NCBI RefSeq assembly: GCF_000719345.1
Contig: NZ_JOFX01000062.1
Location: 1-19,222 of the forward strand
DNA: 19,222 bases
Direction of reading: 5' to 3'
DNA from: Streptomyces sp. NRRL F-2664
GTDB taxonomy: Bacteria; Actinomycetota; Actinomycetes; Streptomycetales; Streptomycetaceae
Positions 1,756 through 19,222 of the stretch are shown here, in pieces (position 1 is the first letter of the stretch; each line of letters begins with the position of its first letter). A model generated the notes under the pieces. The model was not told the DNA's origin. It saw nothing but the letters and a program-made list of their open reading frames with translations, and made no database searches. A program made the position numbers and the translations under genes.

Positions 1756-3297
1756 GTGAAGAACAGCAGGGAGATCATGGAAATCCTTGAGGCTTACGAC
1801 CTCACGGGGAGTTACCGCGCCGCGGCCGAGCGGGCCGGGTGCGACCGCCACACGGTGAGTACGTGAAGATGCGGGCCGCCGGCCAGAACCCTGACCAGCA
1901 CCGCCACCGGGCCCGCGCGATCGACGGCTACCTGCCGAAGATCGAGGAGCTGGTGGTCCGCTCACAGGGCCGGATCCGCGCGGACGTGGTCCACAAGCGG
2001 ATCACGGCGATGGGCTTCACCGGCGGCGAACGCACCACCCGCCGCACTGTCGCCGAGGCAAAAGCCCAGTTCAGGGCTGGTCGACGCCGGATCTGCCGGC
2101 CGTGGGTGACCGAGCCGGGACTGTGGCTTCAGTACGACTTCGGCGGCGGCCCGGTCATCGGCGGACGCAAGACCACACTGTTCTGCGCCTGGCTGGCCTG
2201 GTCCCGATTCCGGGTCGTCATCCCGAATCTGGGACCAGACGCTGCCGATGGTTACCGCGTGTCTGGACGCAGCGATCCGCCGGATCGGCGGGGCGCCCGC
2301 CTACGTCCTGACGGACACCGAGAAACGGTCACCACCGACCACGTCGCCGGGATCGCCATCCGCAATCCGGAGATCGTCGAGGTCGCCCCGGCACTACGGC
2401 ACGGCCATACGAACCTGCGTGCCGGCCGACCCCGAGACCAAGGGCGGCTCGGAATCGACCGTGAAGATCGCGAAGGCAGACCTCGTCGCCAAGGACGTGA
2501 ACCTGCGCGAGGACTGCAAGAGTTTCGGCGACCTCGAGACGGCTGCCGGGCCTTCTGCGAGGAGGTCAACTCCCGCACTCCCGGGCGGCCCGGAGCAAGC
2601 CAGGCCGAGAAGCTCGCTGAGGAACGGCAGCGTCTTCACCCGTTGCCGCGCGGGCCGTTCACCGCGGCCTTCGCCACCACCCGGCGGGTCACCTGGGAAC
2701 CGACGATCTGCGTCGAAGCGGTCCGCTGCTCCGTTCCGCACGAGCTGATCGACACCCGGGCCTGGGCCCGTTTCCACGGCGACGAGCTGATCGTCACCGC
2801 CGTCGACGAAGACGGATCGGCCCGTGAGGCCGCCCGCCGCCACCGCGGCGAGCCGGGCAGCCCGGTCCTGGACGATGCCCACTACCCGCCCCGCGAGGAC
2901 AAGGAAGGCGACCGGAGGCCGAAGGCCGCCTCGGCAGAAGAAGCCGCGTTCCTCCGGCTCGGACCCGGTGCCGCGAGCTGGCTGATCGAGGCCGGAGCCG
3001 CTGGGGTCCGCCGGATCAAGGCGAAAACGGCCCAGGCCGTCGCCCTCGCCACGCTCTACCCGACAGCGGACAGCGGACGTCGACCGGGCACTGGGCACCG
3101 CCGCAGTCACCGCCCGCTTCGCGGACAAGGACCTCATCTCGATCCTCGACTACCAGTCCGCCCACGGGATCGCCGAGCCACACCGCCGCAGCGAGAACCA
3201 CTCCCTGCAGCCCGGAACCTCCGCCTGGCCCGCCCTCGGCGCCACCACCCCGAGCACTCCTGGCCTTTCCGAGTACGACGAAAGCGACCACCTGTGA
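1756..3297 (+). pseudogene. istA: IstA transposase of IS21-like element, multiply frameshifted
   Basis: GTG at 1756 opens a frame giving an HTH-like start (REIMEILEAYDLTGSYRAAA) that stops at about 1866 through a frameshift near 1855. Pieces of IstA then alternate between two frames: the DDE domain starts with LWLQYDFGGG (about 2120), continues with a CLDAAIRRIGGAPAYVLTD piece (about 2250-2320), then TDHVAGIAIRNPEIVEV, then a stretch with PETKGGSESTVKIAKAD (about 2435-2490). These hold the three expected acidic residues (YDFG, LTDTE, GSEST). The C-terminal part ends at TGA 3295-3297, overlapping the istB start by 4 bases. I count at least six frame changes. The family moves DNA by cut-and-paste with the help of IstB; this copy cannot be made as one protein. 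Confidence 0.85.
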
Positions 3298-4191
3298 GGG
3301 CCACCCCTCTTCGCACCGTTCCCGGCACCAACGGCGACCCTCCCGCCGAGGCCATCGAGCTCACCAAGCGCCTCAAGCTCCCGCACATCCGCAGGTCGCT
3401 GACCGACATCATCCCCACCGCCAAGGCCCAACGCTGGGATCCGGCCGGGGCCGTCCGGGTGTTGCCGGCCGAGGAAGCCGCCGGCCGCGACCGCGCCAAC
3501 CTCCACACCCGCCGCCAGCGGGCCGGTTTCCCCACCGGCAAGACCTTCGGCGACTGGCACGAGAGCAAGTCCTCCATACCCAGGCCCACCCAGGACGCGC
3601 TCAAGAGCCTCCAGTGGGTCGGCCGCCGCGAGAACTTCTGCATCTGCGCCCCCCTCCGGCACGGGAAAGCCGCACTTCACCGAGGCACTCGGACAGACCG
3701 CGGTCGAAGCCGGCCTGGCCGTCGCCTGGTTCACCACCGAGGACCTCGGAGCCTTGGTCCGCCGCCACCGCGCCGACGACTCCATCGCCCGGGCCCTCGC
3801 GAAGATCGTCCGATCCGACCTGACCACCGTCGACGGCATCGGCCTGCTGCCCGTCTCCGAAGACGCCGCCGAAGGCTTCTACCGCCTGGTCGACGCCGCC
3901 TGCGAACGACGCTCGATCGCGGTCTCGAGCAACCTCCACCCGTCTGGATTCGACGAGATCATGCCCAAGACCCCCGTCACCGCGACCGTCGACCGGCTCC
4001 TCCACCACGCCCACGTCACCGTCACCCAGGGTGACTCGTTCAGGTTCACCGAGGCCACCACCGGCATGGGAGCCAAGCCCTTCAGCCAACCCGCACCATC
4101 CCAGCGCGGGGAGATACCTGGCCGCCACCGGGGAACTTCCAACGGCCGTCAGCGGGGAGAACCACCACTGGCCCCCTCTGGGGAGAACGAC
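3294..4191 (+). pseudogene. istB: IstB ATPase helper of IS21-like element, frameshifted
   Basis: GTG at 3294 overlaps the istA stop, the usual IS21 coupling. The first frame reads through AIELTKRLKLPHIRRSL to FCIC near 3649. One extra base there shifts the frame, and the ATPase domain continues in the next frame as PSGTGKPH, the Walker A loop in which the usual GKS/T serine is now proline. Walker B reads LTTVDGIGLLP where family members have DDIGLLP. Further family pieces (SVSSNLHPSGFDEIMP-like, then VDRLLHHAHVTVTQGDSFR) follow. No natural stop is seen before the ISL3 insertion at 4192; the frame runs on into that element to 4269. The frameshift and two changed nucleotide-binding motifs mark it as dead. 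Confidence 0.8.
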
Positions 4192-5849
4192 GGCTCTTCG
4201 GCACTGTCCGTGAATTCGGTGATCCTTGGTAGCCCTTGGCGGTGGGGGACCATGCGGTTGAGCTGCTGAAAGTGTTGTTGCCGTACTTGTCTCAGGTGAT
4301 GGTCGACGCCGTCGTCCGAGTCGGTACGCCGGTACGGATTGCTGCCAGATGCCTCGCGGCGACAGCCCGCTGTCACGGGTGCGGCACGGTCTCGGTCCGA
4401 GTGCACAGCCGCTACGGCCGCAGGCCCGCCGACACCGCGATCGCCGGACAGGAAGCGGCGATCGACCTCGAGGTCCGGCGCTTCTTCTGCCGACAGCACC
4501 CACTGCGCCGAGAAGACCTTCGCCGGGCAAGTCGACCATCTCGCCTTCCGCCATGGGCGACGAACCGCGACCTTGCAAAGCCAACTGGGACACGTCGCGT
4601 CGGCGTTGGGCGGGCAGGCCGGAGAACGTCTCGCCGAACGACTGGCCATCCCGTGAGCGGGCCCACCCTCCTGCGGCTGATCCGCTCCATGGACCTCCCG
4701 GAAGTACCCGGACTGACAGTGCTCGGCGTCGACGAGTCCGCCTTCCGCCGCGGCCTGGCGCTTCGGCGCCATCCTCTTCGCCATGGACAGCCACCGCCCC
4801 GTCGACGTCCTGCCCGACCATACGGCGGAGACCTCCGCCAACTGGCTCCGCCGACACCCGCACATCGGCACCGCCTGCCGGGACCGCGGCGGCGCCTTCG
4901 CCGAGGGCGCCGAACGCAGTCAGCCCGGAATCCCGCAGGTCGCAGACCGCTGGCACCTGCTCCACAACCTCGCCGCCGTCCTGGGGAAGGCAGTCACCCG
5001 CCACCGCTCCTGCAATGCAAACCCAGAGCCCGACGTAATTCCTGTCCCAGCTGACACTGCGGGTGAGGAGTCCGCCTCCGCGCGCAAAGTCCGCGAACGG
5101 CACCACGGCATCCAAATCCTGTTCCGGCAAGGCCTCACCAACGACGCGATCAGCGCACAGCTCGGGCTCGACCGCAAAACGGTACGCCGATACGCGCGAG
5201 CCGCCACCGCCGAGTCCCTGATACGCCAGCGGCCCAACCGCACCAGTGCCCTGACCCCGCGCAAGCCCTACCTTGCGCGCCGGTGGGCCGAGGGCTGCGA
5301 CAACGCACAGACCCTGCTCGACGAGCTCACCGCCCTCGGTTGCCTCGGGGGCCGCAGGAGCATCCGGTGGTTCCTCAACACCCTGGCCAGCCACAGCGGC
5401 CCACGCGCCGTTCCTCCTCCGCCACCTGCGGTCGCCGATGTCGTCCGGTGGATCACCGGCCGACCCGAGCACCAGAGTGACCAGGCCCGCCAGGACCTCA
5501 AGGACGTCTGCGGACGCTGCCCGGAGATCGCCGAGGCCAGCCGCCTGGCCCGCGGCTTCGCCACCATCCTGCGCTGCCGAGAAGGGCACCGGCTGGGAGA
5601 CTGGTTCGCCCAGGCCGACGAGTCCCAGGTCAAGGAGATCCGGACCTTCGCCAACGGGCTCCGCAAGGACCTTGCCGCTGTCACCGCCGGGCTCACGCTC
5701 CCCTTGAGCTCCGGCGCCGTCGAAGGCAGCGTCACGAGAATCAAGCTCCTCAAGCGCCAGCACTACGGTCGGGCCGGCTTCGACCTCCTCCGCAGACGCA
5801 TCCTCCTGGCTCACTGACCAGTTCACTTCACGGAAAGTGTCGAAGAGCC
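4192..5849 (+). mobile_element. ISL3-family insertion sequence with inverted repeats and 8-bp target duplication
   Basis: The left tip GGCTCTTCGGCACTGTC (from 4192, 23 bases to 4214) matches the reverse complement of 5827-5849 at 21 of 23 positions. GGCTCTTC tips are usual for ISL3. Flanks are AGAACGAC (4184-4191) and AGAACTAC (5850-5857), an 8-bp duplication with one change; 8 bp is the family's normal length. Removing the element and one flank copy restores the right end of the IS21-like element, so ISL3 arrived second. Confidence 0.9.
4239..5817 (+). pseudogene. ISL3-family transposase, three frameshifts
   Basis: A likely GTG start at 4239 begins a frame with the N-terminal zinc finger (ARCHGCGTVSVRVHSRYG, then FFCRQHP). 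A shift near 4500 moves to a frame giving AEKTFAGQVDHLAFRHGRR and ending LAERLAIP. A second shift returns to the first frame for LLRLIRSMDLPEVPG and the first catalytic Asp in LGVDESAFRRG. A third near 4760 moves to the long last frame (to the TGA at 5815-5817) with the second Asp in CRDRGGAFAEGA, an extra HTH (NDAISAQLGLDRKTVRRYAR) found in the longer members, and the last Glu in SGAVEGSVTRIKLLKR. All three catalytic residues survive, so only the frame is broken. Confidence 0.85.
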
Positions 5850-6663: not shown

Positions 6664-7824
6664 TCAGATCCTGCTGCGCAGTTCGTCAACCAGTGCCAGC
6701 AGCTCTTCTGGCGAGAGGGCCTGGGCGATGCTGTCGGCCTGCTCGCCCGGAGTGGCCCCGAGGTACTGGCGCAGGCGCAGGGCGGCTTCGCTGACGGGGC
6801 GGGGAACGTGCACACCTGTCGGGCTGCCGGGGTTGTTGACCGCGGTCAACAACTCCGTATGGCGGGGGCCGGGAGCGGCCTGGCTGTCCGTGCCGGGGGC
6901 GGTCCGGCTCGGGGCCGGCGGGCTGCTGGCCGGGGTGGGGGGTTCACCCGGTCCGGCCTCGTGTCCGGCCTGGCCTGTCGGGCTGCCGGGGTTGTTGACC
7001 GCGGTCAACAACTTCGGGGCGGCGGCGTCCAAGATCGCTCGTCTTTCCGCTCGGTTCCTGGCTTCTTCCGCTTTGTGGGCTGCCAGGAGCCGGAAGAGGT
7101 CGTCGGCGCAGAGAGGTGCGGGGGAGTCTTTGAGCCGACGCGACATCCACACTGCGTCCCTGCCCGAGGTCTCCCCGGCGCTCACGGAGGCCCGGACCTC
7201 GGCCGGCAGCGCGAGCAGGCCGAGCTGGTTGGTGATCCATGCCCTGGACTTGCCGAGCTGCTCGGCGGCCCTGGTCCGGGCTCCGTACCCGCTGTCGTTT
7301 TCAGCGCATACCTCGACGAGCTGCTGGACACCGGTCGCCCGTTCCACGGGGTCGAAGTCGGTCCGGTCGAGGTTCTCCTTCAGGAGCTTGTTGAGGAACT
7401 CCTCGCGGCTGTCTGCGAACTCGTCGCGGATGACGAAGTCGAGGGCCGGCAGTTCAACGTGCCGGGCACTGCGGAAGCGGCGCTCTCCGTTGACGAGGAC
7501 GTACTCGGCGGTGCCGATGGCGGATGCGTGGTCCGGCCAGAGCACCAGGTAGGCCGCCCGGGTGACGGCGACACAGGCGGCGAGCTGCGCCAGGCGCAGC
7601 TCTTCACCGAAGCGCGTCAGCTCTTCCGGTGTGCCGAAGTTGCGGCGGGGGTTGAGGGGGGTGGAGGACACCTGCTCCAGGGGGATCCTGACGATGGTGT
7701 AGGCGGGGATGCGCCCTTCGGCCAGGGCCTTGGCGCGGCCGCGGTCGCTGAGGGCGGGTCCGACCTGGAGGGCGGATGCCCTCTGGAAGCTGGATCCGCC
7801 TCCGAGCCTGTCTGCTTTGCTCAT
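6664..7824 (-). CDS. parB: ParB-family centromere-binding protein
   Basis: 386 residues. I chose ATG 7822-7824, whose bases overlap the parA stop in ATGA; the longer frame upstream would lie inside parA. Residues 40-135 are the ParB/Srx CTP-binding domain, with NPRRNF (58-63) and GERRFRSA (113-120) as the signature box. Residues 183-210 are the HTH, RAAEQLGKSRAWITNQLGLL, close to the GKSR-x2-V-x-N-x-L-x-LL form of chromosomal ParB/Spo0J. A Pro/Ala/Gly-rich linker (271-340) carries LLTAVNNPGSPTG twice (272-284 and 325-337). The short C-terminus (345-386) is helical and Leu-rich, fitting a dimer domain. The protein should load on parS-like DNA, spread, and stimulate ParA ATPase to separate plasmid copies. 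Assignment is firm; the DNA target is inferred. Confidence 0.93.
   Translation of the reverse strand: MSKADRLGGGSSFQRASALQVGPALSDRGRAKALAEGRIPAYTIVRIPLEQVSSTPLNPRRNFGTPEELTRFGEELRLAQLAACVAVTRAAYLVLWPDHASAIGTAEYVLVNGERRFRSARHVELPALDFVIRDEFADSREEFLNKLLKENLDRTDFDPVERATGVQQLVEVCAENDSGYGARTRAAEQLGKSRAWITNQLGLLALPAEVRASVSAGETSGRDAVWMSRRLKDSPAPLCADDLFRLLAAHKAEEARNRAERRAILDAAAPKLLTAVNNPGSPTGQAGHEAGPGEPPTPASSPPAPSRTAPGTDSQAAPGPRHTELLTAVNNPGSPTGVHVPRPVSEAALRLRQYLGATPGEQADSIAQALSPEELLALVDELRSRI
6815..6854. repeat. 40-bp direct repeat copy 1 inside parB, with perfect 22-bp palindrome
   Basis: Bases 6815-6854 are identical to 6974-7013. They contain a perfect 22-bp palindrome at 6832-6853 (half-site GTTGTTGACCG followed by its complement). 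On the coding strand they encode LLTAVNNPGSPTG. The two copies lie 159 bases apart, so the repeat keeps the reading frame. It is a candidate ParB or regulator binding site inside the coding region. Confidence 0.9.
6974..7013. repeat. 40-bp direct repeat copy 2 inside parB, with perfect 22-bp palindrome
   Basis: This is the second identical copy. Its palindrome is at 6991-7012, with the same half-site GTTGTTGACCG. It lies in the sequence for the disordered linker between the HTH and dimer regions of ParB, where extra DNA would be least harmful to the protein. Confidence 0.9.
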
Positions 7825-8981
7825 CCGACGAGCCTCCTGGTGAGCTTCCGCATGCAGTCGGCCTGCTCGGATTCGGGTGCGTACTCGAGCAGCGGTTTCT
7901 TGACGCGGACCGCCTCGCGCTGCTCCTTCAGATCCGGGATGACCCCGACAACGGGCGGCGAGCCGAGGTCCCGCCACCCCTGGAGCGAGGACGTGGCGAT
8001 GTAGCCGCGCCGGCTGTCGTAGAGGTTCACCACGATGCCGAGGAGGGCGAGGGCCAGGTTCATGTCGCCGGCGAGGTCGGAGATCTGGGCCATGAGGAGC
8101 TCGTAGGCATCTGCGGAGGAGTCCTCGGCCTGGACGACGATAAGGATGCCGGAGGAGTCGGGGTCCTCTCCGTCACGGGTGCGGCCGTAGTAGAGGGCGT
8201 TGTCCATCGTGTACCCCAGGCTGGGCGGGCAGTCCACGATCACGTAGTCGTAGTCCTCCTCCAGGGCCAGGAGCTCCCGCTCCAGCGCGGCCTCCCGGAC
8301 GCGCAGGCCGGGCGCGGTCGCGAGCTTCGCATCCAGCAGGAAGGCGTACGTGGAGCCCGGCAGCAGGTGGAGCCGGTCCCCGAAGAGCTGGTCCGACTCC
8401 ACGTGCACGACCAGGCTGCGCAGGTCGGTCCTCTTCTCTTCGCCGAGCATGCGCTTGGCCAGGCTCGGATCGTCGATTCCGAGCGGCTTGTGGCCGAGCT
8501 GCTGTGTGAGGTGGCACTGAGGGTCGAAGTCGACGAGGAGCACGCGGGCGCCCCGTTCTGCGATGCCCTCGGCAATCCCCGCCGAGACGGCCGTCTTCCC
8601 GACTCCGCCTTTCTGGTTGCAGACGACGTACCTGACCGGGCCTGTCGCCTCACGCTGCCGGTGGGATGCGGGCCTGTCCCGCAGCCACTCGGTGAGGGCT
8701 TGCGCCAGCGCCTGGTTGAGAGCCGATCTGCGGCTTCTGGCTACCTTCCTGAACTGCGCGTTCAGGCCGTGGGGGAGGTGTGTCGTAAAGTTCGCAGCTC
8801 CGCCTGTGTCGACCGGCGGGTGCTCTGCCCCCTCTTCCATCCACGCCTGAACGGCTTCCGTGACAGCGTCCTGCATGTCCAGTCCGAGCTGGGCAGCACG
8901 CACTTTGATCTTCTGCCGCAGTACAGGCGGCAGCTTGATGGCTACCTTTTCCCGGGCGGGCGGCTCGTTTGAGGCGTTCAT
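7821..8981 (-). CDS. parA: ParA-family partition ATPase with N-terminal ribbon-helix-helix-like segments
   Basis: 386 residues from ATG 8979-8981, with AAGG about nine bases upstream. Residues 12-49 (KVAIKLPPVLRQKIKVRAAQ then a helix ending AVQAWMEE) look like a ribbon-helix-helix fold. Residues 64-101 (NFTTHLPHGLNAQFRKVA, then a helix ending ALTEWLRD) look like a second. From residue 117 a deviant Walker ATPase follows: NQKGGVGKTA (122-131), LLVDFDPQ (148-155) and YVIVDCPPS (246-254). The family forms ATP-dependent patterns on nucleoid DNA that pull ParB-bound plasmids apart. The N-terminal part probably binds an operator to repress the operon, as the HTH of other large plasmid ParA proteins does. 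The stop overlaps the parB start (ATGA), so the two are translationally coupled. The frame is intact. Confidence 0.93.
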   Translation of the reverse strand: MNASNEPPAREKVAIKLPPVLRQKIKVRAAQLGLDMQDAVTEAVQAWMEEGAEHPPVDTGGAANFTTHLPHGLNAQFRKVARSRRSALNQALAQALTEWLRDRPASHRQREATGPVRYVVCNQKGGVGKTAVSAGIAEGIAERGARVLLVDFDPQCHLTQQLGHKPLGIDDPSLAKRMLGEEKRTDLRSLVVHVESDQLFGDRLHLLPGSTYAFLLDAKLATAPGLRVREAALERELLALEEDYDYVIVDCPPSLGYTMDNALYYGRTRDGEDPDSSGILIVVQAEDSSADAYELLMAQISDLAGDMNLALALLGIVVNLYDSRRGYIATSSLQGWRDLGSPPVVGVIPDLKEQREAVRVKKPLLEYAPESEQADCMRKLTRRLVG

Positions 8982-9064: not shown

Positions 9065-9910
9065 GGTCTGCCTGCTGTGTGCGATGCAGCCCCGGTGGGG
9101 TGTCGGACAGCGGCTGGCAGCAGGACAGCTGGCGACAGGCTTGCCAACCGGACCGGCCAGCACGCGGCTTACCTGCAGCTGACGAGGACGCACGGCTGCT
9201 GATCGGCGCAGTGGCAGCCGTCGCCGTCGTTGTCGTCGGCACCGGATGCGCCGGTCCCGGACACCGGTGGCCTCTCTTCTGACACCCGGCCGGAGCCGGT
9301 GCCCGCCCGGCTGCAGGCGGCCGGCGCGAAACGGCCCCAAGCCAAGACGCCGCTCCGGTGTACGGGGACGGCGCGAGGGAGCCCCGCCCGCCCTCCAGAG
9401 GTCCGGCAAGCCTGCGGAGCATGGCCGAGTCGCCGCCCGGGCCTGCGCCGCTCCCGCAGCAGCAGTAACCGCGCTGCCTGCCCCCGGTCACCGACGCCAG
9501 CCCGGCCGCCCCCGGCCAGCTCCCCCGGGGAACCCGCAGGCGCAGACGGACAGCACCGGTCGGCCGAAGTAGCCATGTCAGTGAGACAGCCGCACGCTTG
9601 CCCCGGCAGCACACCGGAGAGCATCCTGTCAGAGCAGACCCGATCCGCACCGACGCCGAGCACGTGGCCTCCTGAATCGCCGAGGCCGAATACACCGGGA
9701 CACGGCTGTCCGGAGCCGAGGCTGCCCGTCGGCTGGCGGCCTCCCCGAAGCCGGCCAGCGCCACGTGCCCGATGCCCAGAAGCACCTGGGCGAGCAGCGC
9801 CGGCAGCACGCTCGCGCGCACCTCCGCTCCGACCGCAGCTGAACCGCCGTTGCGGACAGCGCTCCGTCACCAACTCCAGCCAAAGGCGCGGGCGCACCCT
9901 TCCAGCCGTG

Positions 9911-10172
9911 ACCGGTCACGTGACGGGTGGCCGGCCCGGTCACGTGACCGGTGGCAGGGCCGGTACCGGTGACCGCCCGGCGGCGCCCGCCACTCCCCGA
10001 GCCCGCCCCGCCTCTCCGCTGCGGGCCCGGGCCCTCGACCGACCGGTCACGTGACGGGTGGCAGGGCCGGTCACGTGACCGGTGGCAGGGCCGGTACCGG
10101 TGACCGCCCGGCGGCGCCCGCCACCCCCCGAACCCGCCCCGCCTCTCCGCTGCGGGCCCGGGCCCTCGACCC
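9911..10172. repeat. 131-bp tandem repeat with four TCACGTGA-centred palindromes (candidate parS array)
   Basis: Unit 1 is 9911-10041 and unit 2 is 10042-10172, differing at about five positions. Each unit has two 16-bp palindromes of form CCGGTCACGTGACSGG, 24 bases apart centre to centre: 9912-9927 and 9936-9951 in unit 1, 10043-10058 and 10067-10082 in unit 2. The second of each pair is perfect; the first has one mismatch. Each unit also has CCGGTACCGG (9960-9969 and 10091-10100) and a GGGCCC pair. TCACGTGA is the inner core of the canonical parS site (TGTTTCACGTGAAACA). The array lies about 0.9 kb upstream of parA, so it is the best centromere candidate. Confidence 0.85.
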
Positions 10173-10252
10173 GCTGTGGCCGACCGGGGATCCCGATTCA
10201 TGGCGTAACACACACCCAGAGTCGGAAACTGGCAGCCCAAACGCGCCATGTT

Positions 10253-10579
10253 CCCTAGCAGAGGCCCGATGCCGGGCATGCCCGGCACGATCTCCGCGTA
10301 TGGATGAGCCGGGAAGTCCTTCGCGATGTCTTCGTCAATCTCGGCGATCTTCCGGTCCAGCTCGAGAAGCTCCTGGGCAAGAGCCCCGGCCAGCCGGGCG
10401 GATGTCTGCTCACAGGGAACCGCGGTGTGCTGGCGGTCAGCGGATTCCACTGCGGTGCGGCCGAGCACGGCCGGCCATCGGGCTCTGCGGCCGCGCAGCC
10501 GCTTCTCGAGGCTGCCGGCGCCGAGCCGGCGGATCGCGCCGGGTGTCCGGTAGCCCGTCAGCAGGATCAACGGTCTCAT
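10253..10579 (-). pseudogene. IS110-family transposase, middle segment
   Basis: Minus-strand reading from about 10579 gives LILLTGYRTPGAIRRLGAGS, then AVESADRQHTAVP and LDRKIAEIDEDIAKDF, ending AEIVPGMPGIGPLLG at 10253. This order is typical of IS110 transposases, from the end of the DEDD domain through the coiled linker to the start of the Transposase_20 domain. Similarity stops just after GIGPLLG. The N-terminal catalytic part is not seen upstream, and the C-terminal part may be the scrap at 6190-6326 on the same strand. Confidence 0.8.
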
Positions 10580-10966
10580 GCCGGCCAGGTTCAGCTCCCG
10601 TAAGCCGGGGGCTCGGCATACTAGACAGTAACTGAGGTTTTGAGGGTGGGGTTGGCGGTCAGGCGGTGGCGGTGAGGCAGCCGTCGGCGGGGCGGGGTCG
10701 GAGTTGGATCTTGCGCAAGTGCCTGATGTGGTCCCTGCATGGCAAATTTATGGGAGCGTCCCCCCGGTGAACTGGCCGGCCGGGGGATGCCCGGGTGCCG
10801 GTGTCGGCTGCGAAGGTCAAGGGGTTGCCGATCGAGGTGTTCGGTGTGCCGTCGGGTTTTTGGAGTCCTGCTGTGCGAATCGAAGTGTGTGTGAACGCCA
10901 TCGCCCGTGACGGGCTTCCGTTCCCTGCTTCGGTTTCCGGCGCCGTATGGTGCGGCCGGGGCGGGC
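10580..10966. other. Unassigned spacer between IS110 segment and MFS gene
   Basis: About 390 bases. The IS110 frame can be followed weakly to about 10615. A minus-strand frame ending at 10659 (with DHIRHLRKIQLRPRP) reads like the tail of a protein but matches nothing I know. The promoter for the MFS gene must lie here. A GCCCG/CGGGC hairpin at 10903-10915 sits about 50 bases before its ATG. Confidence 0.4.
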
Positions 10967-12394
10967 ATGCCAAGGACACGACTGAAATTGCAGCGCCTGC
11001 TTCGTAACCTCGCGTCTTCCGGCTCGTCCGCGAGCCCTCTGTCAGCGCTGTATGCGCTGTGCGTCAGCTTCTTCATGATCTGTTTGGATGCCACGGTCGT
11101 GAACGTGGCCGTCCCCGACATCCGCGCCTCGCTCGGGGCGTCCCTCAACGAGGCTGTCTGGGTCAACAGCGCCTATGCCCTCTGCTATGCCGTTCCGCTG
11201 ATCCTCGCGGGCCGGCTCGGTGACCGCTACGGACCCAAGCGGGTCTTCCTGACGGGTCTGGCCGGCTTCACCGTCGCCTCACTGGCCTGCGCGCTCGCCC
11301 CGAGCGCTTCGGTGCTGATCGCCGCGCGGGCCGTGCAGGGTCTGGCCGCCGCGCTGATCGCACCCCAGACCATGTCGATGATCGTGCACATGTTTCCTGC
11401 CGGGCGCCGCGGCAGGGCGCTGGGTGTATGGGGTGCGGTCGGCGGTGCTGCGATGGCCGCAGGCCCCGTGATCGGCGGGCTGCTGATCACATGGACGGGA
11501 TGGCGCAGCATCTTCCTGGTCAACATCCCCGTCGGGATCTTCGGCTGGGTCGCCGCGATGCGGCTGGTGCCCGACTGGCGGCCTGCCAGGGGGCACTGCC
11601 TCGACCTGTGGGGCATCGCGCTCAGCAGTGTGGGTCTGACAGCGCTGGTCTTCGGCGTGCAGAGCGGTGAAGCCTACGACTGGAGTACGGTCGCCGGACC
11701 CGTCACGATCCCCTCGATCCTCACCTTCGGCGCCCTGTGCCTGGCGGTGTTCGTGTGGTGGCAGCACCACAACACCCGCGAGCCGCTCCTGCCGCTCCGG
11801 CTCTTTCGCAACCGGAACTTCTCCGCCGCCTCCACCGCGGGCGGTGCCATGGGAGCCGCCATGGGGGGCCTCTTCCTGCCGCTGATGATCTACCTGCAGA
11901 GCGGCCTCGGCTACAGCCCCCTGGCCGCGGGTGCGGCCACGGTCCCGATGTTCGCCCTGTCCTCCCTGTGCGCGCGCCTGGCGGGCAAGCGGTCCGACAC
12001 CGCCAGCCCCCGCGCCCTGGCAGCCCTGGGCTTCGCCCTGCTCATCGCGGGCACGGCTGCGCTCGCCTGGCTGCTGCACCCCGGCATCAGTCTCTGGGCG
12101 CTGATGCCGTCACTCCTCGCGGCCGGGGCAGGGGTCGGCCTGGTCTCGGCCCCGCTTGCCGGGATCGCCACCCGGACCCTGGAGCCGTCCCTGGCCGGCG
12201 CTGCCTCAGGAGTCTTCAATACCACCCGTCAACTCGGCGGCGCCTTCGGCAGCGCTGCCACCGGCGTCCTCCTCCAAGCACACCTCGGCAACACCCCGAC
12301 CGCCGCTACCCAGGCAGCCCTTGCCTTCCCCGTGGCCATGCTCCTGATCGGCCTCGCGTGCTGCACTGTCGTCGGGCCGGCAGCGAAGGCCTGA
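10967..12394 (+). CDS. DHA2-type (EmrB/QacA-like) MFS drug exporter
   Basis: 475 residues from ATG 10967, preceded by a weak GGGGCGG site. A GTG at 10907 would add 20 residues; the ATG is preferred because the extra stretch is not family-like. The hydrophobic pattern fits about 14 membrane helices. Helix 1 has LDATVVNVAVPDI (40-52), the D1 motif of proton-coupled DHA2 exporters. Motif A is GRLGDRYGPKRV (82-93). The antiporter motif C is GAAMAAGPVIGGLL (160-173). The protein should export a drug or metabolite in exchange for protons at the cell membrane; the substrate cannot be read from sequence. No TetR or MarR regulator, the usual partner, lies beside it. The frame is intact, in contrast to the IS relics on both sides. 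Confidence 0.93.
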   Translation: MPRTRLKLQRLLRNLASSGSSASPLSALYALCVSFFMICLDATVVNVAVPDIRASLGASLNEAVWVNSAYALCYAVPLILAGRLGDRYGPKRVFLTGLAGFTVASLACALAPSASVLIAARAVQGLAAALIAPQTMSMIVHMFPAGRRGRALGVWGAVGGAAMAAGPVIGGLLITWTGWRSIFLVNIPVGIFGWVAAMRLVPDWRPARGHCLDLWGIALSSVGLTALVFGVQSGEAYDWSTVAGPVTIPSILTFGALCLAVFVWWQHHNTREPLLPLRLFRNRNFSAASTAGGAMGAAMGGLFLPLMIYLQSGLGYSPLAAGAATVPMFALSSLCARLAGKRSDTASPRALAALGFALLIAGTAALAWLLHPGISLWALMPSLLAAGAGVGLVSAPLAGIATRTLEPSLAGAASGVFNTTRQLGGAFGSAATGVLLQAHLGNTPTAATQAALAFPVAMLLIGLACCTVVGPAAKA

Positions 12395-14003: not shown

Positions 14004-14411
14004 TCAGAACTTAACGTGGCGGAAAGCGGGCAGGCCGGGTGCATGCTGCCAGGAACCTGCAGGCCGCAGCACTGGGCAGAACGCGGGCGCAGCCCTGAAG
14101 CCCGCCCAGCGGGGGGTGGCCGGACGGGCAAGTGTGTCGCCCGGGCCAGCAGTACTTAACCTGACGGCAAGTTCTGGCGCCAATCTGCTCCAGAACTTTC
14201 GCTGAGGGAAAGTTCTGGAGATGGCCGTCCACGGGACGGCGGAGGCGGCTCCGGCCGGCCCCGCACTTCTCAACCTGGTGGAAAGTCCCGGACGGGCAGA
14301 GGCGCCGGAACTTTCCGCCGCGGAAACTTCCGGCGCTCTCGCGGCGGCGGGGCGCCCGGCGGCTCCTTCGCACCACGCGCCGTCAAAACTTAATCCCAGG
14401 GAAACTTCTGG
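14004..14411. repeat. Series of 29-bp dyad repeats upstream of rep (candidate origin/iterons)
   Basis: The repeat form is an 11-bp arm CCRGAACTTTC, 7 bases, then GAAASTTCYGG. The copies are 14004-14032 (degenerate), 14149-14177 (right arm good), 14190-14218 (perfect arms), 14263-14291 (right arm only), 14305-14333 (one arm mismatch) and 14383-14411 (left arm degenerate). Starts from the second copy on are 41, 73, 42 and 78 bases apart. The last copy ends 39 bases before the initiator's GTG. Binding by the initiator downstream, for origin opening and self-repression, is the natural inference. Confidence 0.75.
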
Positions 14412-14450: not shown

Positions 14451-15164
14451 GTGACGCCTGAACCGCCGGTGCGAGCACAGCGCCGGCCCCGCCCCACCGC
14501 GCCCGCCGACGCGCCCCGCAACGGAGACGAGGTCCTCGACGACATCGTCAGCCTCCTCGCCGGCCACATCGGGCAGACCGCCAACGTCGCCCCTCCGCCA
14601 GCCAGGAGCAGGACCGCTCGCAGAGGCCCCAGGGTCCAGATCAGCGTCGACTACGGCGACACCGACCCCCGCAGCATCCACAAGATGGCAGGCGAGATCG
14701 GCTACAGCATCACGTCCAACTGGTTTGCCCAGTGGATGGCCAAGCTCCTTGTCGCCGGGGTCCTCTCCCGGTCCCGGGCCGCGGTGTTCCTGTTCGTCGC
14801 CGGCGGACAGAAGAAGGGCACCGGTATCGCCTCCTACACGCAGCAGCAGATCACCGACGGACTCAACGAGCTGCTGGACGGCATGCCCGGCGCAAAGAAG
14901 ATCACCCGTCCGACCGTCAACAAAGCCGTCAAGACCCTCATCGAGTGGGGCTGGCTGGAGAGCGCCGGCTACGGCCGGATCCGCTTGAACGTCACCCTCT
15001 GGTTCGCCGGCAACAGCGGCGAGCAGAAGCACGTCCTGGAGGAGATCGCCTCCGACCACGGGAGCGAGCCCGAAGCCTTCCCGCACAGAGTCGGGCCGAG
15101 GTGCCTCCCCGGCCAGCAGATGCTCGACTTTGAGGAAGCGCCCGCCAGGGGAGCGGCAGGGTGA
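14451..15164 (+). CDS. Putative plasmid replication initiator, winged-helix
   Basis: 237 residues from GTG 14451, with AGGAGGA at 14440-14446, the best ribosome site in the window. The first 60 residues are Pro/Arg-rich and probably disordered. Residues 95-187 resemble the RepL-like winged-helix layout: a start helix (AQWMAKLLVAGVLSRSRA), a core HTH with ITRPTVNKAVKTLIEWGWLE (151-170), then a wing strand pair (GYGRIRLNVTLWFAGN). It lies directly downstream of the dyad repeats, as an initiator would, and 46 bases upstream of a second winged-helix gene. Its likely job is to bind those repeats and start plasmid replication. It could instead be only a repressor of its own operon. The family assignment rests on layout and context, not on a catalytic motif. 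Confidence 0.65.
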   Translation: MTPEPPVRAQRRPRPTAPADAPRNGDEVLDDIVSLLAGHIGQTANVAPPPARSRTARRGPRVQISVDYGDTDPRSIHKMAGEIGYSITSNWFAQWMAKLLVAGVLSRSRAAVFLFVAGGQKKGTGIASYTQQQITDGLNELLDGMPGAKKITRPTVNKAVKTLIEWGWLESAGYGRIRLNVTLWFAGNSGEQKHVLEEIASDHGSEPEAFPHRVGPRCLPGQQMLDFEEAPARGAAG

Positions 15165-18322: not shown

Positions 18323-19222
18323 TTAGAACAGAGATGTGTCGTTGCGGATTATGTCAGCCGCTTTTTCTGATCCCGCGAACAGCAGAGGGCTGGAGGGGCT
18401 GTAGCGGAACCAGTAGATCTCGGCCAACAATTCGTCGTCGTCCTTTAGGTAAGATATGGCATCAACATCGGGAATCGTCTTGCTGTAAGTGTTGGCCCAG
18501 TCTTCCATGTAGGCGGTACGTACTCTCGCTACGAGAGAGGTGGCAGCTGGATCTTGATATGTGAGCCATCCGCGAACCGAGGCCATGGCGTGCCCTGCCT
18601 CGTGAAGTGCGGATTCGACGTTAGGGCTACGGTAGGAAGTTTCCGGGTCGGGATCGTCTGCCAGTGTCAGGGCGCGTCTGACGTGGCTCCATGAAGACGC
18701 AGTCCCTGAGGTGATAAAAATTCCAGCCTTCTTGCCGAGTAGCCGGTAAGTTTGCATTGAGTCCAGCAGGGCTTCTAAATCCTTGAGGGGAGCCTTGGAT
18801 AGGGCCGCTAGATGTCTTGCTGCAATAGTTTCCGCCCCGCGCTCAACGTGCAGCAAATTTCCGAATATTTCCGTTACATCATTTGCTGCGGACTGCGGAT
18901 GAGTTTTATCCAGTACTGGTTCCGGTTTCGCCGGTGTGATGGTTTCGTCAACCCTTTGCGCCGGAAGCGTGCCGTCCCTATTCCTTCCGGAATCTTCGTA
19001 CATGCGGGCCATCTGCGCCTGGCTTACATGCGATTTTCCGGAAGGTAGCGCCCATCTGTTGCGCTTTCCGAATCTAAAAGAAATATTTCCGCTCGGGTCG
19101 GTGTATTCGGCGGGGTTGGCGTTGAAGGCCTGGTATTTGTTGAGGGGTGTGGGGTGGGGGTCGCGGGTGGTGAAGCGGCCGGTTTCGCGGTGGTAGAGGC
19201 GTGCGGGGGTGTAGTCGGTGCC
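18323..19222 (-). CDS. Rhs/YD-repeat toxin, 3' part, with anthrax-lethal-factor-like metallopeptidase tip
   Basis: The frame is open from the window edge (19222) to the TAA at 18323-18325, 299 residues; the start lies outside. Residues 1-46 are Rhs core (GTDYTPARLYHRETGRF... ending DPSGN), almost identical to the left gene. The tip (47-299) has a long helical part, then HEAGH at 207-211 (18604-18590), the zinc-binding and catalytic motif of metallopeptidases. Downstream, SYLKDDDELLAE places Tyr 258 and Glu 264 and 268 in an order like the SY...E-F-F-A-E region of anthrax lethal factor, where the first Glu is the third zinc ligand and the Tyr is catalytic. I infer a protease toxin released inside a target cell. 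The tip has lower GC than its surroundings, a sign of module exchange. No immunity gene follows. Confidence 0.85.
   Translation of the reverse strand, partial: GTDYTPARLYHRETGRFTTRDPHPTPLNKYQAFNANPAEYTDPSGNISFRFGKRNRWALPSGKSHVSQAQMARMYEDSGRNRDGTLPAQRVDETITPAKPEPVLDKTHPQSAANDVTEIFGNLLHVERGAETIAARHLAALSKAPLKDLEALLDSMQTYRLLGKKAGIFITSGTASSWSHVRRALTLADDPDPETSYRSPNVESALHEAGHAMASVRGWLTYQDPAATSLVARVRTAYMEDWANTYSKTIPDVDAISYLKDDDELLAEIYWFRYSPSSPLLFAGSEKAADIIRNDTSLF
19111..19222. repeat. Inverted repeat of Rhs core, right copy (partner 196-307)
   Basis: This is the reverse-complement partner of 196-307, with about five mismatches in 112. It reaches the window edge, so its full length is unknown. Confidence 0.9.

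Follow-up and report, generated by a model that had tools for sequence, protein, structure and literature searches.

Two palindromes within a Streptomyces plasmid-type parB gene as very probable parS sites of its own product

Why does a partition gene carry, inside its own coding sequence, two identical perfect palindromes? The question is raised by the window, by which we mean the whole stretch of DNA analysed: contig 62, of 19,222 bases, from an assembly of 672 contigs and 7,982,859 bp (7.98 Mb). A first-pass annotation had reported two perfect 22-bp palindromes in parB, together with a 40-bp exact direct repeat at a distance of 159 bp that stays in frame and encodes the same peptide twice. 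Both descriptions agree with the coordinates and the translation (Table 1). Our findings lead us to read the palindromes as very probable parS sites, that is, as specific loading sites of the ParB protein made from the same gene. What the analysis shows is the sequence itself, its rarity, its recurrence in relatives, the choice of codons and the covariation; from these we infer binding, CTP clamp loading and partition.

The par genes of the window and the two palindromes

In a similarity comparison, the closest relatives of the window par genes are those located on Streptomyces plasmids, and the window was taken for a Streptomyces plasmid on this account. It appears to be one, although contig 62 may be incomplete as plasmid sequence. 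A 137-bp inverted repeat (196-332 and 19086-19222, 89%) lies close to both contig ends and may represent the terminal repeats of a linear plasmid; no match to positions 18700-19222 was found in the plasmid collection. Four 28-bp dispersed repeats (14150-14411, 71-79% against the reference) directly precede an open reading frame of unknown family (14451-15164), with which they form a candidate origin with iterons. The NBC_00513 plasmid encodes a protein with 86% identity to the product of this frame, 90% of the length of that product being aligned, so that both replicons have a gene in common beyond parAB. Additionally, the window holds a gene for an EmrB/DHA2-family MFS efflux transporter (10907-12394, over the TIGR00711 cut-off) and, at 1839-5817 and 9629-10579, IS21-like, ISL3-like and IS110-like transposase genes or remnants that score under the NCBIfam cut-offs, the ISL3-like gene being over the Pfam cut-off.

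The par genes have the composition of a ParABS system of type I with an HTH ParB. A Walker-type ParA ATPase gene (AAA_31, E 5.3e-28; CbiA, 1.1e-18) adjoins and overlaps parB, and ParB has N-terminal and HTH domains. HTH_ParB passes its cut-off (33.1 bits against 22.6), ParB_N stays below it (23.4 against 26.3 bits), as does NCBIfam parB_part (54.7 against 58.45), and the profile of the protein matches the solved structures of Spo0J, ParB and Noc. The sequence contains the GERRFRS motif, and CTP binding and hydrolysis are putative activities.

Table 1. Positions in the window of the par genes and of the repeats considered here
Feature	Position	Strand	Remarks
parB	6664..7824	-	386 aa; HTH ParB; GERRFRS motif; residues 281-341 predicted disordered
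parA	7821..8981	-	386 aa; AAA_31/CbiA ATPase; overlaps start of parB
Candidate parS, copy 1	6832..6853	.	perfect 22-bp palindrome GTTGTTGACCGCGGTCAACAAC; translated LLTAVNN, residues 325-331
Candidate parS, copy 2	6991..7012	.	same 22-bp palindrome GTTGTTGACCGCGGTCAACAAC; translated LLTAVNN, residues 272-278
40-bp exact direct repeat, copy 1	6815..6854	.	within parB
40-bp exact direct repeat, copy 2	6974..7013	.	within parB
131-bp tandem duplication (97%)	9910-10171		upstream of parA; four GTCACGTGAC palindromes, two extended to CCGGTCACGTGACCGG

The palindromes are short, located within parAB and rare in the genome. Their 14-bp core TTGACCGCGGTCAA has exactly 2 copies in the assembly, both in parB; at 1 mismatch it is found at four more places, as compared with 1 for the reversed control. 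On the window contig the 22-mer has no further match at up to 3 mismatches and the 14-mer has one additional match, at 3 mismatches, and 200 dinucleotide shuffles of the window yielded 0 matches to GTTGTTGACCGCGGTCAACAAC even with 3 mismatches allowed. Among 295 genomes of the genus, own genome included, the exact 22-mer occurs in the own genome only, relatives carrying variants of it. Synonymous codon shuffling of the window gene (n=2000) gave a mean of 0.17 palindromes of at least 14 bp, a maximum of 2 and a longest of 22, against the 2 observed, the longest of 22; this comparison is not decisive, since the shuffle reuses the codons of the sites themselves.

Both copies encode LLTAVNNPGSPTG, starting at parB residues 272 and 325. 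The copy at residue 325 falls inside the predicted disordered stretch (pLDDT <50) and that at residue 272 just ahead of it (block 271-280, mean pLDDT 56). The first-pass annotation had placed the peptides in the loose linker of ParB. It had also taken the identity of the copies and their symmetry as signs of selection on the DNA. Selection is upheld by the relatives described below, but the identity of the copies had to be dropped as proof of it: the exact 40 bp (42/43 when extended; 159 bp from start to start) span 17 bp of non-palindromic flank, and may show merely a recent duplication within the gene.

Recurrence, codon choice and frame in related parB genes

Scoring of 7995 candidates returned 459 ParB homologues, the best 120 of which were examined. 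In addition, we compiled a set of 69 loci comprising the window, 54 loci found by ParB similarity (one genome per species) and 14 plasmid records. A site of the form TTNNCCGCGGNNAA lies inside parB in 57 of the 69 genes, with 135 in-gene sites altogether, all of which start at gene base 771 or later except in L059, where the gene start is misplaced in the set. Among the 54 similarity-found loci, 49 have such in-gene sites and 41 of these have outside sites too. These 54 loci amount to 967,757 bases, of which parB takes 68,292, and in them the four exact cores TTGTCCGCGGACAA, TTGACCGCGGTCAA, TTTACCGCGGTAAA and TTAACCGCGGTTAA (GTCC, GACC, TACC and AACC forms) account for 107 matches in parB and 100 outside, as compared with 0 and 1 for 300 control palindromes of equal composition. 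A fifth core, TTGTACGCGTACAA, was found 0 times in parB and 6 times outside. Window copies that are identical over 40 bp, flank included, could also stem from chance, through recent duplication of a neutral, functionless palindrome; as 57 of the 69 parB genes have a site and control palindromes are absent from 54 of them, the probability of this is next to negligible.

The recurrence is not universal, which counts against reading the palindromes as parS. Five of the 54 loci (L013, L030, L031, L052 and L058) lack a site of TTNNCCGCGGNNAA form in parB: L058 has a different palindrome there, TATACCGCGGTATA, L030 and L031 have TTGTACGCGTACAA after parB only and none inside it, and L013 has one TTAACCGCGGTTAA, outside parB. 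As a separate observation, the ParB recognition helix of L030 and L031 reads THQ instead of TNQ. In systems that are more distant, parB contains other palindromes, among them ATTACGSCGTAAT in a S. clavuligerus plasmid and TTTTACGGCCGTAAAA in NBC_00842. Also on the opposing side, three plasmids of Rhodococcus, Nocardia and Mycolicibacterium have CCGCGG-centred palindromes only outside parB.

Among the relatives, the complete NBC_00513 plasmid (167,292 bp; ParB 64% identical) has all 5 of 5 copies of TTGACCGCGGTTAA in parB and, on either strand, none outside parB with up to 1 mismatch. From these sequences, sites in the window clade seem to be confined to parB. As for L011, its in-gene copy is TTGACCGCGGTTAA and its outside copy TTAACCGCGGTTAA, as though TTA codons were avoided.

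The position of the sites within the gene would also suit operators or roadblocks, at which bound ParB slows its own transcription and keeps its level constant while partition proceeds at other sites. In this regard, 22 of the 100 outside sites of the relatives fall in the interval 1150-1500 bp ahead of the parB start, which in annotated loci holds the beginning of parA, and 35 of 100 lie within 500 bp after parB. However, there is no other exact core in the assembly and none at up to 1 mismatch elsewhere on the NBC_00513 plasmid, so that under this proposal no partition site would be known for ParB there. We consider operators without a partition role unlikely; autoregulation by bound ParB is nevertheless possible, and operator and parS functions can both hold.

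A codon table built from sites picked by their DNA pattern was discarded as circular, and copies were picked by the peptide pattern L, S or T, A, D or V, N or K instead (123 copies in 67 genes; L020 and L053, which hold N runs, were omitted). In these copies leucine is TTG in 123 of 123 cases, compared with 256 of 2822 in the rest of parB, and lysine is AAA in 17 of 18 cases, compared with 96 of 867 in the rest; the p-values of this bias overstate independence, as the copies are related by descent. Full symmetry is kept in 110 of the 123 copies. The other 13 are one pair off, and 10 of these have the half-site change GGTTAA in common, nine of them in L004 and L005. Only one synonymous change recurs, from GTC to GTT at valine; it is common to nearly all copies of these two loci, in which 5 of 5 (L004, the NBC_00513 plasmid) and 4 of 5 (L005) parB site copies have the asymmetric core TTGACCGCGGTTAA. 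Free synonymous drift of the palindrome in relatives, the outcome that would speak against selection on the DNA, is not what these copies show.

Selection could act on the peptide, with LLTAVNN or LLSADNK as a short binding motif of the linker and the DNA symmetry as an incidental feature. The linkers of P0001-P0010 contain 2-6 LLTAVNN-like copies each, and 131 of the 135 in-gene sites have one reading frame in common, a point that makes a peptide role conceivable and weighs against the parS reading. The four out-of-frame sites are in L015, L020 and L053, of which only the L015 gene is intact, the others being those with N runs. In L015 a second copy of the same site DNA is translated one frame over, as TFVRGQK. 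Moreover, other ParB relatives among the best 120 of 459 have VLTAVNT, PLTAVK or LLSADNK in the linker, and symmetry is kept while the peptide varies among LTAVN, LSADN, FTAVK, YTAVY, VNAVN and YYAVI. Stops, or the rare TTA codon, in the other frames of some cores would account for part of the frame bias, as judged from the sequences. Together with the uniform TTG and near-uniform AAA codons and with similar palindromes outside parB, the changing peptides and the L015 frame change render selection on the peptide highly improbable. The linker repeats of the family (LLTAVNN, LLSADNK, VLTAVNT) are best explained as by-products of a DNA site read in one frame.

In the outer arms of the sites, beyond the core, paired positions keep their complementarity while the letters change. 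Arm complementarity exceeds that of all 2000 shuffles at half-positions 8-12 of the in-gene sites (129 unique sites) and 8-14 of the outside sites (119), kinship among the sites being left in these figures. As side observations, the longest perfect palindrome, of 68 bp, lies in L012 about 1.26 kb (1258 bp) before the parB start and has the site core at its centre, and perfect palindromes of 48-58 bp lie at a similar place in L025, L043, L044 and L064. Template switching is described as evening out inverted arms (PMC8604942) and is a candidate cause of the arm symmetry; a second candidate is a role as hairpin or terminator downstream of parB. Complementary arms of varying letters, and the ability of each window copy to form a 9-bp stem closed by a CGCG loop, would also be expected if RNA hairpins in parB mRNA were selected for pausing, stability or translation. 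Folding is unremarkable, however (z -2.45 and -1.09), and a hairpin needs neither a fixed core nor a core that tracks the ParB helix, which leaves this proposal hardly credible.

Covariation with the recognition helix and the repeat before parA

In a profile alignment, the window-family helix falls on the GKSRS recognition helix of Caulobacter ParB, in which S172 and R173 are reported to contact parS (PMC7383237). The residue before a conserved W predicts base 4 of the half-site: serine goes with T in 37 of 37 loci and alanine or glycine with A in 14 of 14, a count over 51 loci that omits the 18 of 69 in which the helix match or the sites are absent. With proteins added, their sites deduced from LSAD/LTAV peptides, 152 of 153 rows are concordant, P0066 being the exception; this set holds 166 rows, 13 of them without a site state, and omits 13 loci without helix match and 10 of the 120 proteins (no match, or the same core as another row). 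By protein, 109 of the 120 are concordant, 1 is discordant and 10 are without motif or helix match. Judged by eye, loci without helix match show RSW with GTCC sites (L050, L051, L053-L056 and L059), GGW and GAW with A sites (L064 and L070) or other cores (L058 and L065-L067).

On a FastTree tree built without the trait residue and the linker, we count 5 changes of the residue and 3 of the site, and independent pairs are 2 for, 0 against and 1 without difference (p 0.5, not significant). Such covariation fits ParB as the binder, with few independent switches; the small number of changes and the discordant P0066 count against the parS reading.

The window holds another set of palindromes that could be separate sites, namely those in the tandem repeat before parA (Table 1), and this too has to be set against the parS reading. 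If the four GTCACGTGAC palindromes were the partition sites, those in parB would serve otherwise. They lie about 2.1-2.3 kb before the parB start, presumably resemble the chromosomal parS core, and include two of the three GGTCACGTGACC copies of the assembly. Nevertheless, GTCACGTGAC is present in only 4 of the 69 par loci (the window, L004, L005 and L068), as a single copy in the last three; the L004 copy has other flanks and falls within an annotated gene at a distance of ~3.9 kb from parB. GGTCACGTGACC occurs in single copies in L004 and L005. By comparison, 57 of the 69 parB genes contain the CCGCGG-centred palindromes, and these covary with the ParB helix. Partition at the GTCACGTGAC palindromes is, in our judgement, very unlikely.

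A model for the in-gene sites and comparison with known systems

Taken together, the palindromes of the relatives, the codon bias, the helix covariation, the L015 frame change and the precedent of plasmid SCP1 support the proposal of the first-pass annotation that the gene carries a ParB loading site. In the model that we favour, the recognition helix of ParB dimers would bind the 14-bp core TTGACCGCGGTCAA, and the dimers would load as a CTP clamp and slide into the flanking DNA, where sliding ParB would form a partition complex moved by ParA. The sites would be placed in the linker-coding part, where ParB is expected to tolerate an extra heptapeptide. A wider version is possible but doubtful: the centromere of the clade might consist only of an in-frame array in the coding sequence of its own binder, dictating the ParB linker; ParB might load during transcription, making loading and parB expression one coupled feedback, and template switching between the arms may both preserve the perfect symmetry of the palindromes and make their arms longer.

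If the palindromes are parS, the same letters serve as a candidate docking site and as a protein linker, and the repetitive linkers of many Streptomyces plasmid ParB proteins are explained as disguised DNA sites. The parS of such members would then be readable from parB itself. Additionally, the naturally varied ParB helices and sites of the family would form a series in which changes of plasmid centromere specificity, and the maintenance of compatibility, can be studied, and a replicon with loading sites in parB alone would permit a clean test of the coupling between partition and parB transcription. The principle is known, parS inside parB being already in print for B. subtilis (PMC4442127) and SCP1 (PMC13245405); an array solely inside parB appears to be an unusual form of it. 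In the literature covered, mainly titles and the beginnings of abstracts with subscription papers mostly outside it, we found no paper that attributes the repeats in ParB linkers to in-frame parS arrays.

The nearest described case is that of parABS1 and parABS2 of SCP1 in S. coelicolor, which belong, as the window may, to a Streptomyces linear plasmid and have a type I HTH ParB (PMC13245405). ParB1 and ParB2 are reported to bind parS by ChIP-seq and BLI, and both to slide with CTP (PMC13245405); the step from sequence to binding for the window ParB leans on these data. As in the window, parS inverted repeats lie inside the parB genes, one site inside parB1 and one inside parB2, and they were recoded for complementation (PMC13245405). 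SCP1 differs in that each operon is surrounded by three identical sites, for which lengths of 13 and 19 bp are given (PMC13245405); the palindromes of the window number two, measure 22 bp around a 14-bp core and both lie in parB, with none found outside, SCP1 being compared by its description only.

SLP2 parAB of S. lividans (L060) also has two palindromes inside parB, of odd length, TTAACGSCGTTAA; it differs from the window in its core and in a distant ParB. The system of B. subtilis is chromosomal and, unlike the window, has further parS sites at other places near the origin, and we know of no in-frame parS array in the linker part of its parB. What it shares with the window is a parS site within parB, described as parS-359 (PMC4442127). 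As regards specificity, residues 173, 179, 184 and 201 are reported as those tested in ParB and Noc (PMC7383237), and the varying residue of the window family aligns with the residue after R173, which by counting on would be S174. In this respect the window family resembles the chromosomal ParB-parS and Noc-NBS pairs, in which a few recognition-helix residues are described as setting the base preference (PMC7383237).
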